From a virus: DNA of 21,826 bases. Of the stretch, positions 1 through 21,826 are shown in pieces. Position 1 is the first letter of the stretch, and each line of letters opens with the position of its first letter. The DNA is taken from positions 1-21,826 of IMG/VR virus record IMGVR_UViG_3300009127_000109. The stretch is one strand, 5' to 3'. The notes below the pieces were generated by a model. That model was not told the origin of the DNA, searched no databases, and saw only the letters and a program-made list of their open reading frames with translations. Both the position numbers and the translations under genes were made by a program.

Positions 1-189
1 TCCCTGTGTAGGATCTACACCAAAGGCAAAACGAACATTGTTGCCTTCAGCAGATATCTCACACATTACTGGAAAGTTTCCATTATCATTTTGTAGTTGA
101 GTATTTGTGAGTCCCTGAGCAATATCAGTGCATGCTATAGCTAGAGTTCCTTCAACATAACCATATTCATTAGATGTTATTTTATTCAT
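1..189 (-). CDS. Partial hypothetical protein, possible virion protein (3' end outside window)
   Basis: An open reading frame starts at ATG 189-187 and runs off the left edge with 63 codons and no stop. The protein begins MNKITSNEYGYVEGTLAIAC and continues as a beta-rich, Ala/Thr/Asn-rich stretch without charged clusters. That composition is common in small phage capsid decoration or fibre proteins, but no family-specific motif is visible. Its start overlaps the stop of the upstream methyltransferase gene as ATGA, so it is the last gene seen of the leftward sugar operon. If it is a structural protein it could be the acceptor of the glycan made by that operon. This is inference from position only. 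Confidence 0.6.
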   Translation of the reverse strand, partial: MNKITSNEYGYVEGTLAIACTDIAQGLTNTQLQNDNGNFPVMCEISAEGNNVRFAFGVDPTQG

Positions 190-788
190 TTTAACCTCTT
201 ATAGATCATAAAAGTGTGGTCTACATCTTTGTAGTCCTTTAGGCTAGTTAAAACATATAGATTGAGTAAGCCACTTAAGTCTGTTGTCGAGATGAAATTC
301 ACAGTATAGGCCCTGTCATTTTTTTCATCTACTTTAGATAAAGTCCAAGACTTTTTGTATTGCAGTGGAGTAAAGATAGAGATTAGTAAAGATGGAATAT
401 TTAGCTTGTTTATATACTCCAGTACATTTTTCCAGCTTGGTATATGTTCTATAATATATCTTAAAATCAAAACATCAGGAGAGATTGTTCTTATTGTCGT
501 AGAAAGTTTATCAATATCCTCTATGTTTAACTCTTCAAATTCTACATTTGGTAGATTAAACTCCTTCTTTGCTCTATCTACAAAAGTTTTAGTTTTGTCA
601 AATCCATAGTAAGTAATATTGTCTACCTTATTAAGAATTTGAATTAGAAGTCTATTATTTCCAAAACCTATTTCGGCAACTTTTTTAGGTTTGATATCTA
701 GTAAGTACTCAATTATGTCATTTGAGTCCTCATCAAAGACATTACTTAGAAATGCTGATGATCTACCTTCCCAATCGTTAATTTTCAT
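186..788 (-). CDS. Class I SAM-dependent methyltransferase (200 aa)
   Basis: The protein has the Rossmann-type SAM-binding glycine motif, VAEIGFGNN at about residues 37-45, followed by an acidic strand end (YYGFD, about 60-64) and a post-II segment ISPDVLILRYIIEHIP at about 103-118. That order is typical of class I methyltransferases. It probably methylates a small molecule or sugar rather than DNA, since no DPPY-type motif is present. The neighbours are a second methyltransferase (11-bp overlap) and glycosyltransferases, so an O- or N-methylation of a glycan is the likeliest role. The substrate is not readable from the sequence. Confidence 0.8.
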   Translation of the reverse strand: MKINDWEGRSSAFLSNVFDEDSNDIIEYLLDIKPKKVAEIGFGNNRLLIQILNKVDNITYYGFDKTKTFVDRAKKEFNLPNVEFEELNIEDIDKLSTTIRTISPDVLILRYIIEHIPSWKNVLEYINKLNIPSLLISIFTPLQYKKSWTLSKVDEKNDRAYTVNFISTTDLSGLLNLYVLTSLKDYKDVDHTFMIYKRLK

Positions 789-1377
789 CTTTTCTAAATA
801 CCTTTAAGTCATTCTTAAACCACCCAGAACAATTCATAGTCTTGAATATAGACATAAGGTAGTCTGACTCATCTTTGCAATAGTTAAAGTTGAATATTTT
901 AAATATCTCTATCCAGTATTCTTTAGGTTGTGGATTGAAGTGATGAAATCCATCCTTTATTGGACAAGCTGAGATACATAATGTATTGCCCAAGATTGTT
1001 AAATTTTTTGCCGATCTTTTTGCAAACTTCTCTTCAAGATGCTCTAAGACCTCAAGACAAAGGACTAAGTCGAATTTTCCAAGATCAGGCAACGAAGCAC
1101 GCATGTCAGCTATCAAGAATGGAGTTCCAAACAACTTTTGAATATAAGGTGCCCAATATCCAGTTCCTTCGATACCAAGAAGTTTTTTACATCCAAGCTT
1201 TCTGAATGCCTGAAGATGAATACCATTAGCACAGCCGACATCTATGATGGACTCAGGCTTGAAATAATCATAGATGACTTCCATAACTGGAGGAATAGTC
1301 GTAAATCTCCATTCTTTAGCATTTATTCTTTTACAGTATTCTTCACCGTAAAGTTCTATTGTTTTAACTTTCTTCAT
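778..1377 (-). CDS. Class I SAM-dependent methyltransferase (199 aa)
   Basis: Motif I, IIDVGCANG (about residues 44-52), and the LCLEVLEHLEE segment (about 106-116) are hallmarks of Methyltransf_11/23-type enzymes, in which the EVLEH stretch follows SAM-binding strand 4. The C-terminal part, with HHFNPQPKEYW at about 145-155, resembles small sugar or lipid methyltransferases found in glycan clusters. The start overlaps the GT-B gene by ATGA, and the end overlaps the next methyltransferase by 11 bp. Two adjacent methyltransferases suggest two positions on one sugar, or capping of a glycan chain; that is inference. Confidence 0.85.
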   Translation of the reverse strand: MKKVKTIELYGEEYCKRINAKEWRFTTIPPVMEVIYDYFKPESIIDVGCANGIHLQAFRKLGCKKLLGIEGTGYWAPYIQKLFGTPFLIADMRASLPDLGKFDLVLCLEVLEHLEEKFAKRSAKNLTILGNTLCISACPIKDGFHHFNPQPKEYWIEIFKIFNFNYCKDESDYLMSIFKTMNCSGWFKNDLKVFRKDEN

Positions 1378-2537
1378 AATTGTCTCGATGCAGCTATTCT
1401 TGATCTCCAGTCAGTCCCAGGGATTATTTTCTTAGTTAACTGAGGAGATCTTTTAGCAGTGTTAATAACTACCCTTTTTCGTTTAGATATAAATTGTCCA
1501 CTAAAACATACTTGATGAGAACAAGTTTCAACATCTGGAAATTCCAAAGGTCTGTCAACTATCTGACAGATATAGTTAATAAATTGCTTAGTACGTATTT
1601 CAGAAGTATGATTGTTCAAGATTAGTTGTCTACCTTTATCAGATATTCTTTTAATTTCATCTTTATCATTAAGTAGGTCTTCTACTCTTTCAATTAGATT
1701 TTCTTTAGAATAAGAAACCATATTTACTTCGTCTTGAAAACCTAGCATTCCAAGATCCGAGAACCAATTAGACATAAGTAATGAACCTGAAGCAGGAATT
1801 TCTACATACTTATGAACAGGAGCATTAATTTTAGATCCTCCTGTTACACATATCCAAGATGATTGAAGTAAATTGTCATAATCCTTATCAATAGGCCATT
1901 TAGAACTCCGTAAAGTCCCAGCTCTGTCTCTTGGTCTTTTAACTCGTTTAAAGTAAGACTTATTTTCCAGAAGTTTTACAGCCATCCTACGATTAGGATA
2001 AAAATCTCGTGTGTATATACCAATGTGAAGAACTCCAATTGACTTCTCAATCTCATCACTGAATCTATTCATCTTAATTGAATGAGGAAGCCAAATACAT
2101 TTAAAGTCAAATTTAGCTCTTGGATGATGTTTGTGAAAAGCATAACTAAACCGATGAAAGATAGTCTTTATTCCAAGATCCTTAGCTATTTTAATCTGAG
2201 CCTTTGGGACAGGCCCATGTACATCTTCTATGAAAATCGCTGAAGGTATACCAAACTTCTTCCAAGGCTCATGGATGTAAGCAAAAAAAGCATCACAAAA
2301 AATAAAGTCATAGTCATAGTCTGAACATTTTTCAAGGTGGTTAAGAACTACATTCTCAATCTTTGTTTCACCAGACATTAACTTGTGAGATATATACCAA
2401 GCATTTTGACCTTTGTCTCCAATAGGACACTTTTCAACAACTGTTACATCAGCAAACTTAGACACAGTATATTTGAAGTAGTTAAAATGCTGTGCCACTC
2501 GATGAGATCGATCTATTGTAAGCCAAAGAATTTTCAT
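1374..2537 (-). CDS. GT-B fold glycosyltransferase, CgeB/Glyco_trans_1_2-like (387 aa)
   Basis: The N-terminal half (about 1-155) looks like the acceptor-side Rossmann domain, opening with MKILWLTIDRSHR. The C-terminal half contains KYVEIPASGSLLMSN at about residues 243-257. This is the K-x-x-E-x-x-x-x-G pattern of CgeB-like and group-1 glycosyltransferases that contacts the donor nucleotide sugar, followed by the usual helix FQDEVNMVSYSKENLIERV. The basic C-terminal tail (about 345-387) is extra to the core fold. The gene overlaps the two-domain GT gene by ATGA. Transfer of a sugar to a growing glycan is well supported; donor and acceptor are unknown. Confidence 0.8.
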   Translation of the reverse strand: MKILWLTIDRSHRVAQHFNYFKYTVSKFADVTVVEKCPIGDKGQNAWYISHKLMSGETKIENVVLNHLEKCSDYDYDFIFCDAFFAYIHEPWKKFGIPSAIFIEDVHGPVPKAQIKIAKDLGIKTIFHRFSYAFHKHHPRAKFDFKCIWLPHSIKMNRFSDEIEKSIGVLHIGIYTRDFYPNRRMAVKLLENKSYFKRVKRPRDRAGTLRSSKWPIDKDYDNLLQSSWICVTGGSKINAPVHKYVEIPASGSLLMSNWFSDLGMLGFQDEVNMVSYSKENLIERVEDLLNDKDEIKRISDKGRQLILNNHTSEIRTKQFINYICQIVDRPLEFPDVETCSHQVCFSGQFISKRKRVVINTAKRSPQLTKKIIPGTDWRSRIAASRQL

Positions 2538-4057
2538 AATGCTCGATCAAGTCCCCACTTTTGTTTAAAGTATTTTACACTCTTTTTAATCTCTTCTCTA
2601 TTTAATCTTGCAGCTTTGTATTCTTTACTTCCTCCCCAGTTATTAACAGCTGCCATTTTATCAAAGAGTTGAAGATTAACTAATTTCCATCCTACTGCAC
2701 GAGCTTGCATAAAAAGATCTATATCCCATTCTCCAATGATATAGGTAGGGTCAATCTTACAAAGATCAAATACATCTCGTCTGATAATTGCTGATGCAGA
2801 GCCGACACTATCTACATACTCAATAGGGAACTGAGCATCTACAACATTGAAAGTTGTTGGTTTGAATACTGAGTTAAGTTTATAAATCTTAGATTTATAA
2901 CGAATTCCTGCAACTCCAATATCTAAGTTATTATCTAAAAACTCAACAGCAGACTCAACTGATCCATCTGTATAAGTTGTATCATCATCTGACAGATTTA
3001 TGTAAGATGTTCGAAAACGATTTAAGGTACGTTTTAGGAGTCCCCTTCTAGCAGGGCCAGTTCCTATGTTTCCTCTAGTAAAAAAGACATCGTAGCTTGC
3101 AAAGTTGCTTGCCAGAGATTTTATTTTCTCTTTTTGTCTACCATCAAGATTTTCAGACCCCTGAACCATTAAGGTTAGATTCATTGGGATAGTTATTGTT
3201 TCTAGATGAGATATCAGTGTATTAATTAACTTTTCATAACGTAACCAAGAAAGCATTGCTAAGGTTAGCCTAGGTCCTTCCATAGATGATATGTAATCTA
3301 TAGAAGGTATAATCCAAGATTCAGGATTCTTCACTCCCCAATGGTTATCTATAACCCTGTTATATTCTAACCACTGAAGACGATTCCAATACATCATTGG
3401 AAAGACTTTTCGTTGTATAGCTTTTACTCGTGGCGTTGAAGGTGAATGATGAAGATGATAAATACTAGCATTGAGTATGTTAACTTTATATCCAAATGTT
3501 ACTAACCTAGACCAAAATGCGTTGTCCTCGCCTCCCCAAGATCCTATGAAATCCTCTGGAATACCTTTTAACTCAAAAAAGATTTTCCTAGGAATAATCA
3601 TTGCTGCCCCAGCAGCTGACCCCATACTTGGAGATTTGGTTTTCTCAATTAGTTCTTTGTGAATATATTTAGACCGTAAATATTTTTTGGTTCCTTTTCT
3701 ATTAAGTAAGTGTAACCTATCCCAGCCGATTGATACTTTGTTGCAGGAGATAACTGACTTAACCCAACTTGAGTCTATGATAAGGTCTCCATCCATTAAG
3801 ACTAACATATCACCAGTTGAGATTTCTTTTGCACATCTGTTAATAGCCCAAGCTCGATGAAAGACTCCTGAGTATTTTGTAAAAAGGTATTTATATTTAT
3901 CAGACAAACTTAAATGTTGTTTCTCACCCACTTCATGAATACAGATCTCAAATTGATTGTTGGAGTGTTTTAGTAAACTCTCCAAACAAGCATATAAGAG
4001 AGGTAATCGTTCTGCTGAATGTTGGTAAGGTATAATTATTGAATATTTAGTATTCAT
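2534..4057 (-). CDS. Two-domain GT-A (family 2) glycosyltransferase (507 aa)
   Basis: Two GT-A domains lie in tandem. Domain 1 (about 1-250) starts MNTKYSIIIPYQHSAERLP and has a DGD metal site (89-91). It also has GGEDNAFW at about 175-182, the galactosyltransferase-type C-terminal motif carrying the catalytic acid. Domain 2 (about 262-507) starts LTLAMLSWLRYEKLINTLIS and has a DDD site (357-359), the ARRGLLKR helix and GEWDIDLF (about 442-449). Such bifunctional proteins usually add two sugars in sequence. The start overlaps the SDR gene by 11 bp. Both metal-binding motifs are intact, so both halves may be active. Confidence 0.87.
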   Translation of the reverse strand: MNTKYSIIIPYQHSAERLPLLYACLESLLKHSNNQFEICIHEVGEKQHLSLSDKYKYLFTKYSGVFHRAWAINRCAKEISTGDMLVLMDGDLIIDSSWVKSVISCNKVSIGWDRLHLLNRKGTKKYLRSKYIHKELIEKTKSPSMGSAAGAAMIIPRKIFFELKGIPEDFIGSWGGEDNAFWSRLVTFGYKVNILNASIYHLHHSPSTPRVKAIQRKVFPMMYWNRLQWLEYNRVIDNHWGVKNPESWIIPSIDYISSMEGPRLTLAMLSWLRYEKLINTLISHLETITIPMNLTLMVQGSENLDGRQKEKIKSLASNFASYDVFFTRGNIGTGPARRGLLKRTLNRFRTSYINLSDDDTTYTDGSVESAVEFLDNNLDIGVAGIRYKSKIYKLNSVFKPTTFNVVDAQFPIEYVDSVGSASAIIRRDVFDLCKIDPTYIIGEWDIDLFMQARAVGWKLVNLQLFDKMAAVNNWGGSKEYKAARLNREEIKKSVKYFKQKWGLDRAL

Positions 4058-4817
4058 CTATAAACCATTTAAAAGTTCTACGAAGACCATTTTCTAAAGA
4101 AACTGTTGGGCTAATAGTTGGAACAACGTCTATATGATTTATCTCACCAGGGACTGAGTCCTTATGTGAAATGTTAGGAGCTGAGCCTATGAGATCTAAA
4201 GATATGTTAGATAACATGTCTACAAGGATATTTATAGAGATTGAATTACCAGATGCCACTGCTGCTACATTCAGTTCATCATCTGAATTTAAAATAGCCT
4301 TCACAACATCCCCTACATATACAAAATCTCTTGTCTGTCTTCCATTTCCATAAATGCAAAAAGTATCATCATTGATAGCTGCTTTTATAAACTTTGGTAT
4401 TACACTATTTTTAAATTCTGAACAAGGCCCATAGACATTTGAGAATCTTATTATTTGAGTGTTTAAGTTATAAGATTCCTTAAATGCTTTGCAGTAGGAT
4501 TCTCCAGCAACTTTGCTCGCTAGGTAAGGCGACCTTGGATCTGACACTCCAATAGATGAAGCAAAAACGAACTTTTTAAAATTATGAAGAGACGCATATT
4601 TCAAGTATTCAAGAGTCTTGAGGCAGTTTGAGTTAAAGTTAGTCAAAGGATCTGAAATAGATAGTCTAACATCTGTAGATGCAGAAAGATGAATAAACAT
4701 ATCTGCATTGTAATGAAAAAGATTATGCAAACACTCAAATTGAATCTCTTCCTTACGTAGATATTCAGACAGATATCTGCCTATGAATCCTTTGTGTCCT
4801 GAGATTAGGTACTTCAT
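4047..4817 (-). CDS. NAD-dependent sugar epimerase/dehydratase, extended SDR (256 aa)
   Basis: The N-terminus has the extended-SDR dinucleotide motif GHKGFIG (residues 7-13). The catalytic Tyr-Lys pair is in SPYLASK (Y98, K102) with serines at 87-88, and the substrate segment includes RFSNVYGP and GNGRQTRDFVYVGDVV. These identify a nucleotide-sugar 4-epimerase or 4,6-dehydratase. At 256 aa it is shorter than the usual 300-340 aa, mainly because the first Rossmann half is compact (the HLSAS strand is already at about 43-47). It overlaps the end of the upstream GT2 gene by 53 bp. It probably makes the activated sugar used by the neighbouring transferases. Confidence 0.88.
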   Translation of the reverse strand: MKYLISGHKGFIGRYLSEYLRKEEIQFECLHNLFHYNADMFIHLSASTDVRLSISDPLTNFNSNCLKTLEYLKYASLHNFKKFVFASSIGVSDPRSPYLASKVAGESYCKAFKESYNLNTQIIRFSNVYGPCSEFKNSVIPKFIKAAINDDTFCIYGNGRQTRDFVYVGDVVKAILNSDDELNVAAVASGNSISINILVDMLSNISLDLIGSAPNISHKDSVPGEINHIDVVPTISPTVSLENGLRRTFKWFIDEY

Positions 4818-5802
4818 TTAAATTATCTTCCCAAGGTTTTAATTCAAGAAACTCTTCAAATGACATTACTTTATTTTTATCAAGCCATCGCTTTTCACTC
4901 TCTCCCCATTTTATAGCTTGATTCCAGTATTTGTCTACATCTATGAAACGCCCAAAGCGTTCCGTAATAGCTTCTTTGTTTCTTCTCATCATAGACTCAC
5001 CACCGAGAACATAGCAAGATACAAGAAATCCTACAGTGTGAGGGCCTTGGCCTGAAGCTGTATAGAGACGATACTTGCCTATTTTTACTACATTTTTGTC
5101 TTTGCCTTTGTCTATCTTAGGATAAGGGCCTATATGGATTCCTGGGTTAGTAGGTACTGCCCAGTTTTTATATCCAAGGAGCCAAGCTTTGACTCCAAGG
5201 TGCATATCTCCTCCACCCCAGGAAACTTTGTGTATAGCAAGAGCTCCATAACCTTTTAAAGTATTTAAGAACCAATCTCTTTTACATATCCAAGGCATAC
5301 CTTTCCAAGTAATAGTTCGTGGATGAAGATAAGCAAGGTTCCAATCACCTAATTCGTTGACAGATACGTCTCTGTCATGTTTGGATCTGCATTCATGCTG
5401 ATGAGCCCAGTTAATAGGTGCATGGCAGAAACCAGTTGTTTCATCCTCGTGGCGATAGATATCCATGAAATTGACTAAGTCAAAAATCATATTTCTGCCT
5501 ATTATCATATGAGAGTCGATGCAGAGGATATATTTACCTAAAGCGTTTTCGATAGCTTTTTCTCTAGCTGTGAAAAGGCAAGGAAAGTTTTGACGAACTA
5601 TTTTGACGAGACCTTCTTTGATATATTTAGAAGGAATGACTGAAGGTAAGAGATCAAAAGTGGATTGGTCTGAATTGTCGCAGATGACTATTTCGGAATT
5701 CTCATGTCCGACTGGACGTAGTTCCTCGATGCAAGACCTGACTGTGATAGAGAGCATTTCCAGATCATTGCGGTTGGAGATTATGATGGAGACTTTTTTC
5801 AT
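4765..5802 (-). CDS. GT-A (family 2) glycosyltransferase (345 aa)
   Basis: From the start MKKVSIIISNRNDLEML the protein shows the GT2 opening strand, a nucleotide-binding segment (IVICDNSDQ), the metal-binding DSH in place of DxD (about residues 96-98), and GGGDMHLGVKAWLLGY (about 196-211), where the catalytic acidic residue is expected. It resembles polypeptide GalNAc-transferase-like GT2 enzymes of phages. An in-frame ATG at 5895 would add 31 residues, but it lies inside the upstream small gene. The chosen ATG (5802-5800) has an AAAGG element upstream and follows the upstream stop by one base, so 5802 is preferred. Confidence 0.85.
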   Translation of the reverse strand: MKKVSIIISNRNDLEMLSITVRSCIEELRPVGHENSEIVICDNSDQSTFDLLPSVIPSKYIKEGLVKIVRQNFPCLFTAREKAIENALGKYILCIDSHMIIGRNMIFDLVNFMDIYRHEDETTGFCHAPINWAHQHECRSKHDRDVSVNELGDWNLAYLHPRTITWKGMPWICKRDWFLNTLKGYGALAIHKVSWGGGDMHLGVKAWLLGYKNWAVPTNPGIHIGPYPKIDKGKDKNVVKIGKYRLYTASGQGPHTVGFLVSCYVLGGESMMRRNKEAITERFGRFIDVDKYWNQAIKWGESEKRWLDKNKVMSFEEFLELKPWEDNLNEVPNLRTQRIHRQISV

Positions 5803-5803
5803 C

Positions 5804-6010
5804 TTAGCCTTTGTATTTGAAGACTTTGTCCATTGTTGACATAAGTTTGTCATCCCAGGTTTCGTCAGGGTCATCAACAGCAACTTTAAGGGCATTTCTC
5901 ATGTCCGAGGCGTAGATCTTACAGATTGTTCCGTAGCCTTTATATAATACCTTACAGACTCTATAAAGAGTTAAGAAGCGTGTAAAGACCATCAATAACA
6001 TTGAAAACAT
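5804..6010 (-). CDS. Small amphipathic/membrane protein, holin candidate (68 aa)
   Basis: The first 18 residues are strongly hydrophobic (MFSMLLMVFTRFLTLYRV), followed by basic residues and an acidic tail with DDPDETWDDKL and a predicted terminal helix. The start at 6010 has a good AAAGGAG site. The gene lies directly after the M15 endolysin, separated by an AT-rich palindrome, which is the classic place for a holin. The DDP...WDDK pattern recurs in small phage proteins beside lysis genes. A single hydrophobic segment and its position are the only evidence, so the holin label is tentative. Confidence 0.55.
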   Translation of the reverse strand: MFSMLLMVFTRFLTLYRVCKVLYKGYGTICKIYASDMRNALKVAVDDPDETWDDKLMSTMDKVFKYKG

Positions 6011-6939: not shown

Positions 6940-6968
6940 ATCATATCATACTAAAATCCAATTGTCAA
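6940..6968 (-). promoter_or_regulatory. Sigma-70-type promoter for the leftward operon
   Basis: On the minus strand, TTGACA (6968-6963) and TATGAT (6945-6940) are separated by exactly 17 bp. It lies about 45 bp upstream of the GTG start at 6897 and is the only strong leftward promoter seen. It probably drives the whole lysis and sugar operon. Confidence 0.85.
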
Positions 6969-6994
6969 CGTAATTTTCAGTACCATTCTTCATA

Positions 6995-7827: not shown

Positions 7828-7877
7828 CCTCTCAATTGCACCAAATGTTACCTTGACTACATAGCAATAGTTATGAT

Positions 7878-7991
7878 ATGTTTAATTGTATGAATGTATG
7901 AATGTTTAAATGTTTAAATGTATGATGTTTGTCTGTCCGTAGGCGGGTATCGACCATACGCAAACATTCCTACAATCCTACAAGCCTACAA
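7878..7991. repeat. Octamer array module A (candidate protein-binding array / origin)
   Basis: Tandem 8-bp units with a TGT core read rightward at 7878-7925 (ATGTTTAA, TTGTATGA, ATGTATGA, ATGTTTAA, ATGTTTAA, ATGTATGA). A further ATGTTTGT follows, one base out of register. The centre is GTTTGTC (7927-7933), 26 bp, then GCAAAC (7960-7965). Units with the complementary ACA core then follow every 8 bp (7964, 7972, 7980, 7988), including TCCTACAA twice and GCCTACAA. The right half is therefore inverted relative to the left. Such unspaced repeats fit binding of ribbon-helix-helix dimers or an initiator. Confidence 0.85.
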
Positions 7992-8028
7992 ATAAAAAAA
8001 TATATCTTATATACTATATATAAGTAAT
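7992..8028. other. AT-rich core between octamer modules (candidate unwinding element)
   Basis: About 37 bp consisting almost entirely of A and T, including TATATCTTATATACTATATA, separates the two octamer modules. A very AT-rich tract flanked by iterons is the usual form of a DNA unwinding element, but there is no direct proof that this is an origin. Confidence 0.5.
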
Positions 8029-8159
8029 ATGTAGTAATGTAGTAACGTATGTGTGTTTGTGTGTAGGTATGTTTGTCAATGGGTGATGCTCTCCACCGGA
8101 CAAGCAAACTTTCTACATTTAAACATTTAAACAATTAAACATTTAAACATTTAAACAAA
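8029..8159. repeat. Octamer array module B (candidate protein-binding array / origin)
   Basis: Rightward units with cores every 8 bp at 8030-8072: ATGTAGTA twice, ACGTATGT, GTGTTTGT, GTGTAGGT, ATGTTTGT. The centre is GTTTGTC (8071-8077), exactly 26 bp, then GCAAAC (8104-8109), the same frame as module A. Inverted units follow with ACA cores at 8115, 8123, 8131, 8139, 8147 and 8155 (TTAAACAT and TTAAACAA forms). The array ends 4 bp before the ribosome site of the 8179 gene, so bound protein could also control that gene. Confidence 0.87.
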
Positions 8160-8178
8160 TAATGAGGAGGTTAGATTT

Positions 8179-8844
8179 ATGAGGGAAAATAGAGATGTGA
8201 AAGTTGAGTCTAGCATACCAGTACAGACTAGAGTTAGTATAGTTAGTTTAGCTAAGTTAATGAATTACTGGGAACTCTCAGGGTATCCGATGAAGACTAT
8301 GAGTCAATTGTTAGCGTGGAGTATTGACTTGTTGATAGAGGTGTTAGTGGCTAACAATGCAATGAATGATAATATAGATACTATTGAGAAAGCTTATCAA
8401 TTGCTGAGAATGAGAGGAGTACTGCAGAAAAGTTTGAAGAATAGAGCTTTGAAGAAAATTCATGCTTCATTGTCATTTGAAAGTTTAAGGCAAGAGGGAA
8501 TTGATCCTAGGAACTATGTGCCTCAACAGTATAATACACTGCATAGGAATACAAGTGTTAAACCTTATCAGGGAACAGTTAGTACAGGTAAGTTCAGTGA
8601 TGTTATTGATGAAGCGTTTGAGAGGTTAGATGAAGAAAATAGAAAGGATAGGAAGGAAACTATTCAAGCAGATATAGAGAAGGCTAAAGAAAGTGGTTTA
8701 GTAATTGAAAAGGGACTTAGAGAAGATATGAGTGATGAGGAGATAGATGAGTATGAGAGAAAGAGGGAAGATGAACAGTTAAAGCTTATCAATCAAGATT
8801 TGACAGAAGAAGATATGAAGAGGTTAATTGTTAAAGATAAATAA
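8179..8844 (+). CDS. Ribbon-helix-helix-like DNA-binding protein (221 aa), candidate octamer-array binder
   Basis: Residues about 12-57 fit a ribbon-helix-helix: a short strand (SIPVQTRVS), helix A (SLAKLMNYWELSG) and helix B (KTMSQLLAWSIDLLIEVL). The middle (about 60-100) is helical and basic. The C-terminal 60 residues are highly charged and acidic, with a KAKESGLVIE motif (about 168-177). The ribosome site GAGGAGG is strong, and the octamer array ends directly upstream. RHH proteins such as MetJ and plasmid omega/ParR bind tandem 7-11 bp sites near their own genes, so this protein is the natural candidate to bind the octamers. It may act in replication, partition or autorepression. Family assignment is by pattern only. 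Confidence 0.75.
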   Translation: MRENRDVKVESSIPVQTRVSIVSLAKLMNYWELSGYPMKTMSQLLAWSIDLLIEVLVANNAMNDNIDTIEKAYQLLRMRGVLQKSLKNRALKKIHASLSFESLRQEGIDPRNYVPQQYNTLHRNTSVKPYQGTVSTGKFSDVIDEAFERLDEENRKDRKETIQADIEKAKESGLVIEKGLREDMSDEEIDEYERKREDEQLKLINQDLTEEDMKRLIVKDK

Positions 8845-10031: not shown

Positions 10032-10053
10032 CCAAATTGTACCAAAAAATTCA

Positions 10054-10083
10054 TTGACAATACCATAATAGTTATGTTATTGT
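10054..10083 (+). promoter_or_regulatory. Promoter for the 10139 gene
   Basis: TTGACA (10054-10059) with TATTGT 18 bp downstream (10078-10083). The -35 is perfect and the -10 partial. It precedes a leader with possible structure and the strong AAGGAGG site of the 10139 gene. Confidence 0.6.
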
Positions 10084-20724: not shown

Positions 20725-21826
20725 ATGTCTGAAATACAAGTTGGAAAGGTGGGAATGATCCCACTTGAATCTATTACTATCGGTGAACGTGCTAGACAAG
20801 AAATGGGTGACCTTGATAGTCTTGAAACTGATATGAAGGGAAGTGGTCTTATCTCACCACTTGCTGTTAAAGATAATAAAGATGGAACCTATTTACTCTT
20901 AGCTGGCGAACGCCGATTTACAGTTCTTAAGAAGAATAACATACAACAAATACCTGTCCGTATCTACGAACAAGATCTTTCACCTCTCGAAATGAAAATC
21001 ATTGAGAAGTCCGAAAACTTCCATCGCAAAGATATGGAATACTATGAGTTTGATGCATTGACTCTTGAAATCCATCAGATGAAACAACAACTTCATGGTG
21101 TGAAGGCTCCAGGTCCAGGTGATGGATGGAGTATGAAAGACACTGGCGAAACACTGGGTGTAACTGACGCTTCTGTCTCAATGGCAGTTAAACGAGCAGA
21201 AGCTCGTGAAGCATTTCCGGAATTGTTTGACAAATGTAAGACTGCTTCTGATGCATCTAAAGTAATTAAGAAAGTTGACGAAGCAATCGTTAAACAGACT
21301 ATTGCTCAGAAACTTGAAACACAAAGAAGTGATGGTACCTTGCAGCAACTAAGCAAGTGTTTTATTCTCAAAGATTTCTTTGAAGGCGTTAAGGAAATCC
21401 CTGATGAGGTAATGCACTTGGTGGAAATTGATCCTCCTTATGCTATTGATATTAAGAAGAAAAAGAAATCTGATGGTGAATCTCAGTATGCTTTAGAGGA
21501 TTATAATGAAATAGATATTGAAAAGTATCAAGTGTTTATTAGTAAAGTGTTCCAGGAATGCTACCGAGTCATGGCAACTCACTCATGGCTCATCTGTTGG
21601 TTTGCTCCTGAACCTTGGTTTGAAGTCATCTACAGGGAACTAAACAATGCAGGATTTAATACTTCTCGTATGTGTGGTATCTGGACAAAGCCTTCAGGTC
21701 AAACTATGCAACCTGATATCTACCTTGCTAATTCCTACGAGATGTTCTTCTATGCATGGAAAGGTAGACCAGCACTTAATAAAGCAGGTCGAAAGAATAT
21801 ATTTGAATTCTCACCTGTCTCACCAA
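20725..21826 (+). CDS. ParB-like domain fused to DNA methyltransferase (partial, at least 367 aa)
   Basis: The frame opens at ATG 20725 with GGAGG upstream and runs past the right edge. Residues 10-100 form a ParB/Srx-type N-terminal domain with LLLAGERRFTVLKK (57-70; GERR 61-64). Next is a predicted helix-turn-helix (about 136-160, ETLGVTDASVSMAV). Then a DNA methyltransferase with motif IV DPPY (236-239) begins, followed by YRVMATHSWLICWFAPEPWF. DPPY indicates an N6-adenine or N4-cytosine amino-methyltransferase. Such fusions are widespread in phages and may protect phage DNA or regulate packaging. The motif order after 239 cannot be checked because the gene is cut. Confidence 0.88.
   Translation, partial: MSEIQVGKVGMIPLESITIGERARQEMGDLDSLETDMKGSGLISPLAVKDNKDGTYLLLAGERRFTVLKKNNIQQIPVRIYEQDLSPLEMKIIEKSENFHRKDMEYYEFDALTLEIHQMKQQLHGVKAPGPGDGWSMKDTGETLGVTDASVSMAVKRAEAREAFPELFDKCKTASDASKVIKKVDEAIVKQTIAQKLETQRSDGTLQQLSKCFILKDFFEGVKEIPDEVMHLVEIDPPYAIDIKKKKKSDGESQYALEDYNEIDIEKYQVFISKVFQECYRVMATHSWLICWFAPEPWFEVIYRELNNAGFNTSRMCGIWTKPSGQTMQPDIYLANSYEMFFYAWKGRPALNKAGRKNIFEFSPVSP

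Follow-up and report, generated by a model that had tools for sequence, protein, structure and literature searches.

The leader of the gene starting at 8179 in an environmental phage is filled with short unspaced repeats, and these form one imperfect inverted repeat around an AT-rich core. Judging from its sequence, there is about an even chance that this is a ribbon-helix-helix (RHH) filament site through which the early operon is autoregulated and which probably also serves as a replication origin. The window, that is, the whole stretch of DNA analyzed, is IMG/VR record IMGVR_UViG_3300009127_000109, positions 1–21,826, and the site studied lies at 7873–8163. More specifically, RHH dimers of the 8179 protein would line up on the unspaced octamers of their own leader, and four short filaments would make up two mirror-image half sites flanking the core. 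The bound protein would thereby autoregulate its expression, by blocking or tuning a promoter that has its -10 in the first unit. Paired filaments may then strain and open the AT-rich core, and the opened site would be used as a replication origin by the phage's own polymerase and primase. Binding, stoichiometry, repression, strand opening, and origin use are what we infer in this proposal.

Gene setting and organization of the site

The site lies between two gene groups. Leftward genes to its left encode an M15 peptidase, a terminase-small-like HTH protein, and others, while rightward genes to its right encode a ligase, a PD-(D/E)XK nuclease, and a Sak4-like protein. A 119-aa gene precedes the site and is followed by a hairpin and T-run resembling a terminator. 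Positions 1–6010 hold a leftward gene cluster that, from reading alone, looks like glycosyltransferases, methyltransferases, and an epimerase. A ParB-like N-terminal domain followed by a DNA methyltransferase domain is encoded at 20725–21825 and at 205–1530 of the related locus L064, the domains having been scanned in the relative. The features of the site are as follows.

7834–7858 (+): conserved 25-bp box ending in the -35; consensus AAATGTACcAAATATTACcTTGACA, here AATTGCACCAAATGTTACCTTGACT
7853–7882 (+): sigma70-type promoter TTGACT-18-TATGTT, with -35 at 7853–7858 and -10 at 7877–7882
7873–8163: whole-site imperfect inverted repeat, arms 7873–7989 and 8047–8163
7878–7925 (+): left outer array, six 8-bp units with TGT cores at 7879–7919
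7927–7965: centre 1, GTTTGTC-26-GCAAAC, an inverted copy of centre 2
7963–7990 (-): left inner array, four inverted units with ACA cores at 7964–7988
7990–8030: AT-rich core, proposed DNA unwinding element
8029–8077 (+): right inner array, six units with TGT cores at 8030–8070 (CGT at 8046)
8071–8109: centre 2, GTTTGTC-26-GCAAAC
8114–8161 (-): right outer array, six inverted units with ACA cores at 8115–8155
8164–8170 (+): Shine-Dalgarno-like GAGGAGG, read from sequence
8179–8844 (+): RHH-family gene, 221 aa, proposed array-binding protein

The original prediction described about 22 octamer cores in two modules, each with a 26-bp centre, separated by an AT tract. Every core lies where it had been placed, and 21 of the 22 are exact TGT or ACA. 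Both 26-bp centres are likewise exact, running from GTTTGTC at 7927–7933 to GCAAAC at 7960–7965 and from GTTTGTC at 8071–8077 to GCAAAC at 8104–8109, and the tract between the modules (7990–8030) is 93% A+T. Chains of six TGT and six ACA cores occur at 8-bp spacing, and dinucleotide shuffling, repeated 200 times for the whole window and 2000 times for the 291-nt region, never gave a chain of more than four. The idea of two separate modules with unrelated centres has to be given up, as the modules are the halves of one inverted repeat with arms of 117 nt each that are 74% complementary. Because 7873–8163 forms this single imperfect inverted repeat, the two centres resemble each other when inverted; in a gap-free alignment, centre 1 and the reverse complement of centre 2 agree at 17 of 26 positions (p 0.0075 against shuffles). 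The view that geometry is conserved rather than sequence thus holds between phages and fails within this phage, where each centre is an inverted copy of the other. The extent of the site was also drawn too narrowly, since it reaches further left into a promoter that overlaps the first repeat unit, although all coordinates given for it were right.

Promoter and leader

The -10 TATGTT overlaps the first octamer, and the array extends from this -10 to just before the Shine-Dalgarno of gene 8179. In most relatives a TTGACA-like -35, a spacing of 16–18 bp, and a TATRAT-like -10 are found at the same place, and the 25-bp box is present at the RHH operon of most of them. Genomes usually have two or three copies of the box: one leftward, one at the RHH operon, and one downstream. 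The window has three (6963–6987 on the minus strand; 7834–7858 and 10035–10059 on the plus strand), and no array is found at the other two, the RHH copy alone carrying one. A CGTTTAA..TTAAACG-like palindrome upstream of some promoters was dispersed across genomes and was therefore discarded as not site-specific.

RHH proteins commonly autoregulate, and it is conceivable that the arrays are simply a large cooperative operator for an RHH autorepressor of the early operon in the style of MetJ, omega, or CopG, with the AT-rich core as a flexible or promoter-like spacer and no role in replication. A start at the -10, a leader filled by the array, and the covariation of array and RHH protein described below are consistent with an operator, as is the use of contiguous 7-bp repeats by pSM19035 ParB (PMC9499535). 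However, an operator alone leaves unexplained both the mirror symmetry about the core and why nearly all genomes melt most easily there, and approximately 280 bp is large for one promoter. We regard a purely regulatory site as a rather doubtful explanation.

The leader could also act as RNA, in which case a long 5'-leader hairpin would govern RNase III processing, translation, or the stability of the transcript, and the DNA repeats would be a by-product. The leader is predicted to fold as one hairpin (-103 kcal/mol, z -10.7), most relatives show strong folds, and G-U-type mismatches outnumber A-C-type mismatches (119 vs 71). However, once composition is corrected for, this excess weakens to p 0.034, the two strands have equal mean z-scores (-6.36 and -6.32), and no Rfam match was obtained at the gathering threshold. 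An RNA element, which would leave the periodic units tracking the RHH protein unexplained, is improbable.

Conservation among related phages

The first relatives to be found were a near-identical contig (99.99%) and a phage carrying a 42% homologue, ligase alignment yielded 51 related contigs, and an iterated profile search placed the RHH family in approximately 38 loci, a few of them duplicates. The same plan is present in approximately 30 related IMG/VR phages, whose loci contain a promoter, phage-specific direct repeats, an AT-rich core, and a mirrored arm, with array boundaries set by eye from printed sequence. In nearly all loci with the region available, the best, or a significant, inverted repeat lies just upstream of the RHH gene. 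Homologues of gene 8179 lacking an upstream array had been named as the observation that would overturn the original prediction; nearly all homologues with the region available have the promoter, inverted repeat, and AT-rich core. The four loci found later by RHH query are among these, with an inverted repeat and AT-rich core in 4/4, and their conserved box was clear in two, weak in one, and unconvincing in one. No relative without both gene and array was found when sought, and the RHH gene is present in all 16 near-complete genomes. A small extra ORF lies between array and RHH gene in L014, L029, L032, L033, L045, L120, and L121.

The phage group is apparently lytic and uncultivated. No relatives were found when bacterial genomes were searched for a host with ligase or RHH queries, and no integrase was found in these phages, so that nothing points to a prophage stage requiring partition.

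The 8179 protein and its covariation with the array

That the 8179 protein has an N-terminal RHH domain is well supported by fold comparison of predicted models. The domain covers approximately residues 12–58 (8212–8352) and is followed by a mostly helical C-terminal part. RHH proteins act as dimers that place a two-stranded sheet in the major groove, and their strand-helix-helix domain has approximately 45 residues. Two AlphaFold2 models, both monomer predictions, have an unpaired strand region followed by helices at 21–33 and 41–58, which is the strand-helix-helix order. Most structural neighbours of the N-domain model are RHH proteins (among them NikR, CopG, Arc, PutA, ArtA, MazE, and AtaR), as the original prediction of an RHH-like gene would have it, with modest Z values of approximately 3.3–5.4. 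Foldseek gave no significant match for the N-domain (E-values >1), and fold searches with the whole protein gave no clear match. The 8179 protein matched no RHH family in Pfam, PHROGs, or NCBIfam, RHH domains being short and divergent, and three family members used as queries found no match in 50,697 GenBank phage records. One relative, L046, has two tandem RHH-family genes, at 1872–2204 and 2204–2965.

The array was originally proposed to be read by the 8179 protein, and the correlation between the two favours this proposal. Among 26 phages, arm 5-mer similarity is correlated with RHH N-domain identity (Mantel r 0.41, p 0.0003), while array similarity shows no significant correlation with the ligase, TerS, the 10139 family, or the upstream 119-aa gene (r 0.00–0.10). 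The left arm is correlated with the RHH protein (r 0.39) even though it is far from the RHH gene and touches the promoter box, whereas neither the promoter box (r 0.03) nor the spacer upstream (r -0.06) is. The array–RHH correlation holds at k values of 4 to 6 and persists when the three most similar arrays are removed; within clades, the left arm is significant in each, and both arms together are not significant within clade 1. The Mantel permutation treats phages as exchangeable and ignores shared ancestry, and RHH distances are almost uncorrelated with most control-gene distances here. It is possible that the covariation partly reflects physical linkage, but the promoter and flanking-gene controls argue against this. 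Because the array tracks RHH identity and not a flanking gene or the adjacent promoter box, the RHH protein is very probably the reader of the array.

The alignment also separates two groups, one with a VQxR-type strand and GTTTG/TGTAT-type units and the other with a VQVW-type strand and TGTCG/TGCTG-type units, and clade-2 arrays are of the TAATGTCG type. Within a phage, units recur from one arm to the other in inverted orientation (cosine 0.34 vs 0.14 between phages). Repeat period was tried as a marker of RHH clade and abandoned (Fisher p 0.24, with two loci mis-assigned to clades); sequence content separates the clades instead.

AT-rich core and possible origin function

Of all 30-bp and 60-bp windows in the 21.8 kb, those at the AT tract (7990–8030) are the least stable. 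The corresponding core is the least stable 30-bp window in 13/16 near-complete genomes and the second in another, whereas in genomes G011 and G021 it does not rank among the least stable windows of that size. The repeats have an adjacent AT-rich element of the kind expected at an iteron origin, its unwinding being predicted. It is also possible that the AT-rich cores serve as promoter elements or flexible operator spacers. DNA polymerase A is encoded in 19/23 records searched, some of them fragments, and the one genome annotated has a primase-like protein; a lambda-O-type initiator was not found. In L064, positions 1561–4083 encode a uracil-DNA glycosylase domain fused to DNA polymerase A (Pfam PF03167, PF01612, and PF00476). 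GC skew did not discriminate as an origin test, as its minima track the direction of the genes and are 1 kb to tens of kb away from the site, and third-position GC skew by gene strand gave no usable signal.

The original prediction left the choice between a phage origin, a centromere, and a large operator. If the site were a centromere or a packaging site, the RHH filament would be a ParB/ParR-like partition complex, or the array would be a pac-like site recognised together with the small terminase encoded nearby. RHH ParBs do use contiguous short repeats in either orientation (PMC9499535), and a terminase-small-like gene lies approximately 1 kb to the left of the array. However, no ParA (PF13614) was found in 15 genomes, in a search in which 14/14 controls matched, and the lack of an integrase also speaks against a centromere. 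A search for ParM-type actin gave no match, with no control matching either. We consider partition or packaging highly improbable. An origin in an autoregulated leader is favoured over a centromere given the AT-rich core, the polymerase and primase, and the failure to find a lambda-O-type initiator, an integrase, or ParA.

In its more specific form, the RHH protein would be the replication initiator, and mirrored filaments on a transcribed palindromic array would open the AT-rich core at a type of origin not described before, with arrays and protein co-diversifying across the phage group. We put this forward as a tentative possibility, with the odds somewhat against it. No RHH phage origin was found in the open-access literature.

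Comparison with known systems

Iteron origins, such as lambda ori and those of iteron plasmids, have repeats that are read by a replicon-encoded protein beside an AT-rich unwinding element and near a promoter. Their iterons are longer and usually one-sided, and their initiators are not RHH proteins, whereas the units here are short, unspaced, and mirrored on both sides. MetJ is an RHH metabolic repressor that binds a few tandem 8-bp met boxes. It is like the 8179 system in its tandem 8-bp units, although met boxes are few and no sequence relation was seen. We know of no AT-rich core described at the dyad of pSM19035 parS. The heptad arrays of that parS resemble the site here in consisting of contiguous short repeats, both direct and inverted, but they have 7-bp units and a ParA ATPase, while the site here has 8-bp units and no ParA was found. 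The RHH dimer omega/ParB of pSM19035 needs at least four contiguous 7-bp repeats, direct and inverted, for full function (PMC9499535).

Measured by DNA polymerase (46.6%) and by ligase (37.5%), the closest phage in GenBank is Desulfofustis phage LS06-2018-MD01 (OP947158), which has a similar gene layout. The RHH family matched it only very weakly (E 0.04), and no array comparable to the one here was found in it. Near a gene divergence around 41293–41400 of this phage (L062), there is a 12-bp pyrimidine-rich direct repeat.

If the proposal is true, the known phage origins and initiators would gain an RHH-based class, from a group of environmental phages with an RHH protein that none of the libraries scanned recognises. 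The approximately 30 natural protein–array pairs would also form a data set on how an RHH strand reads DNA.
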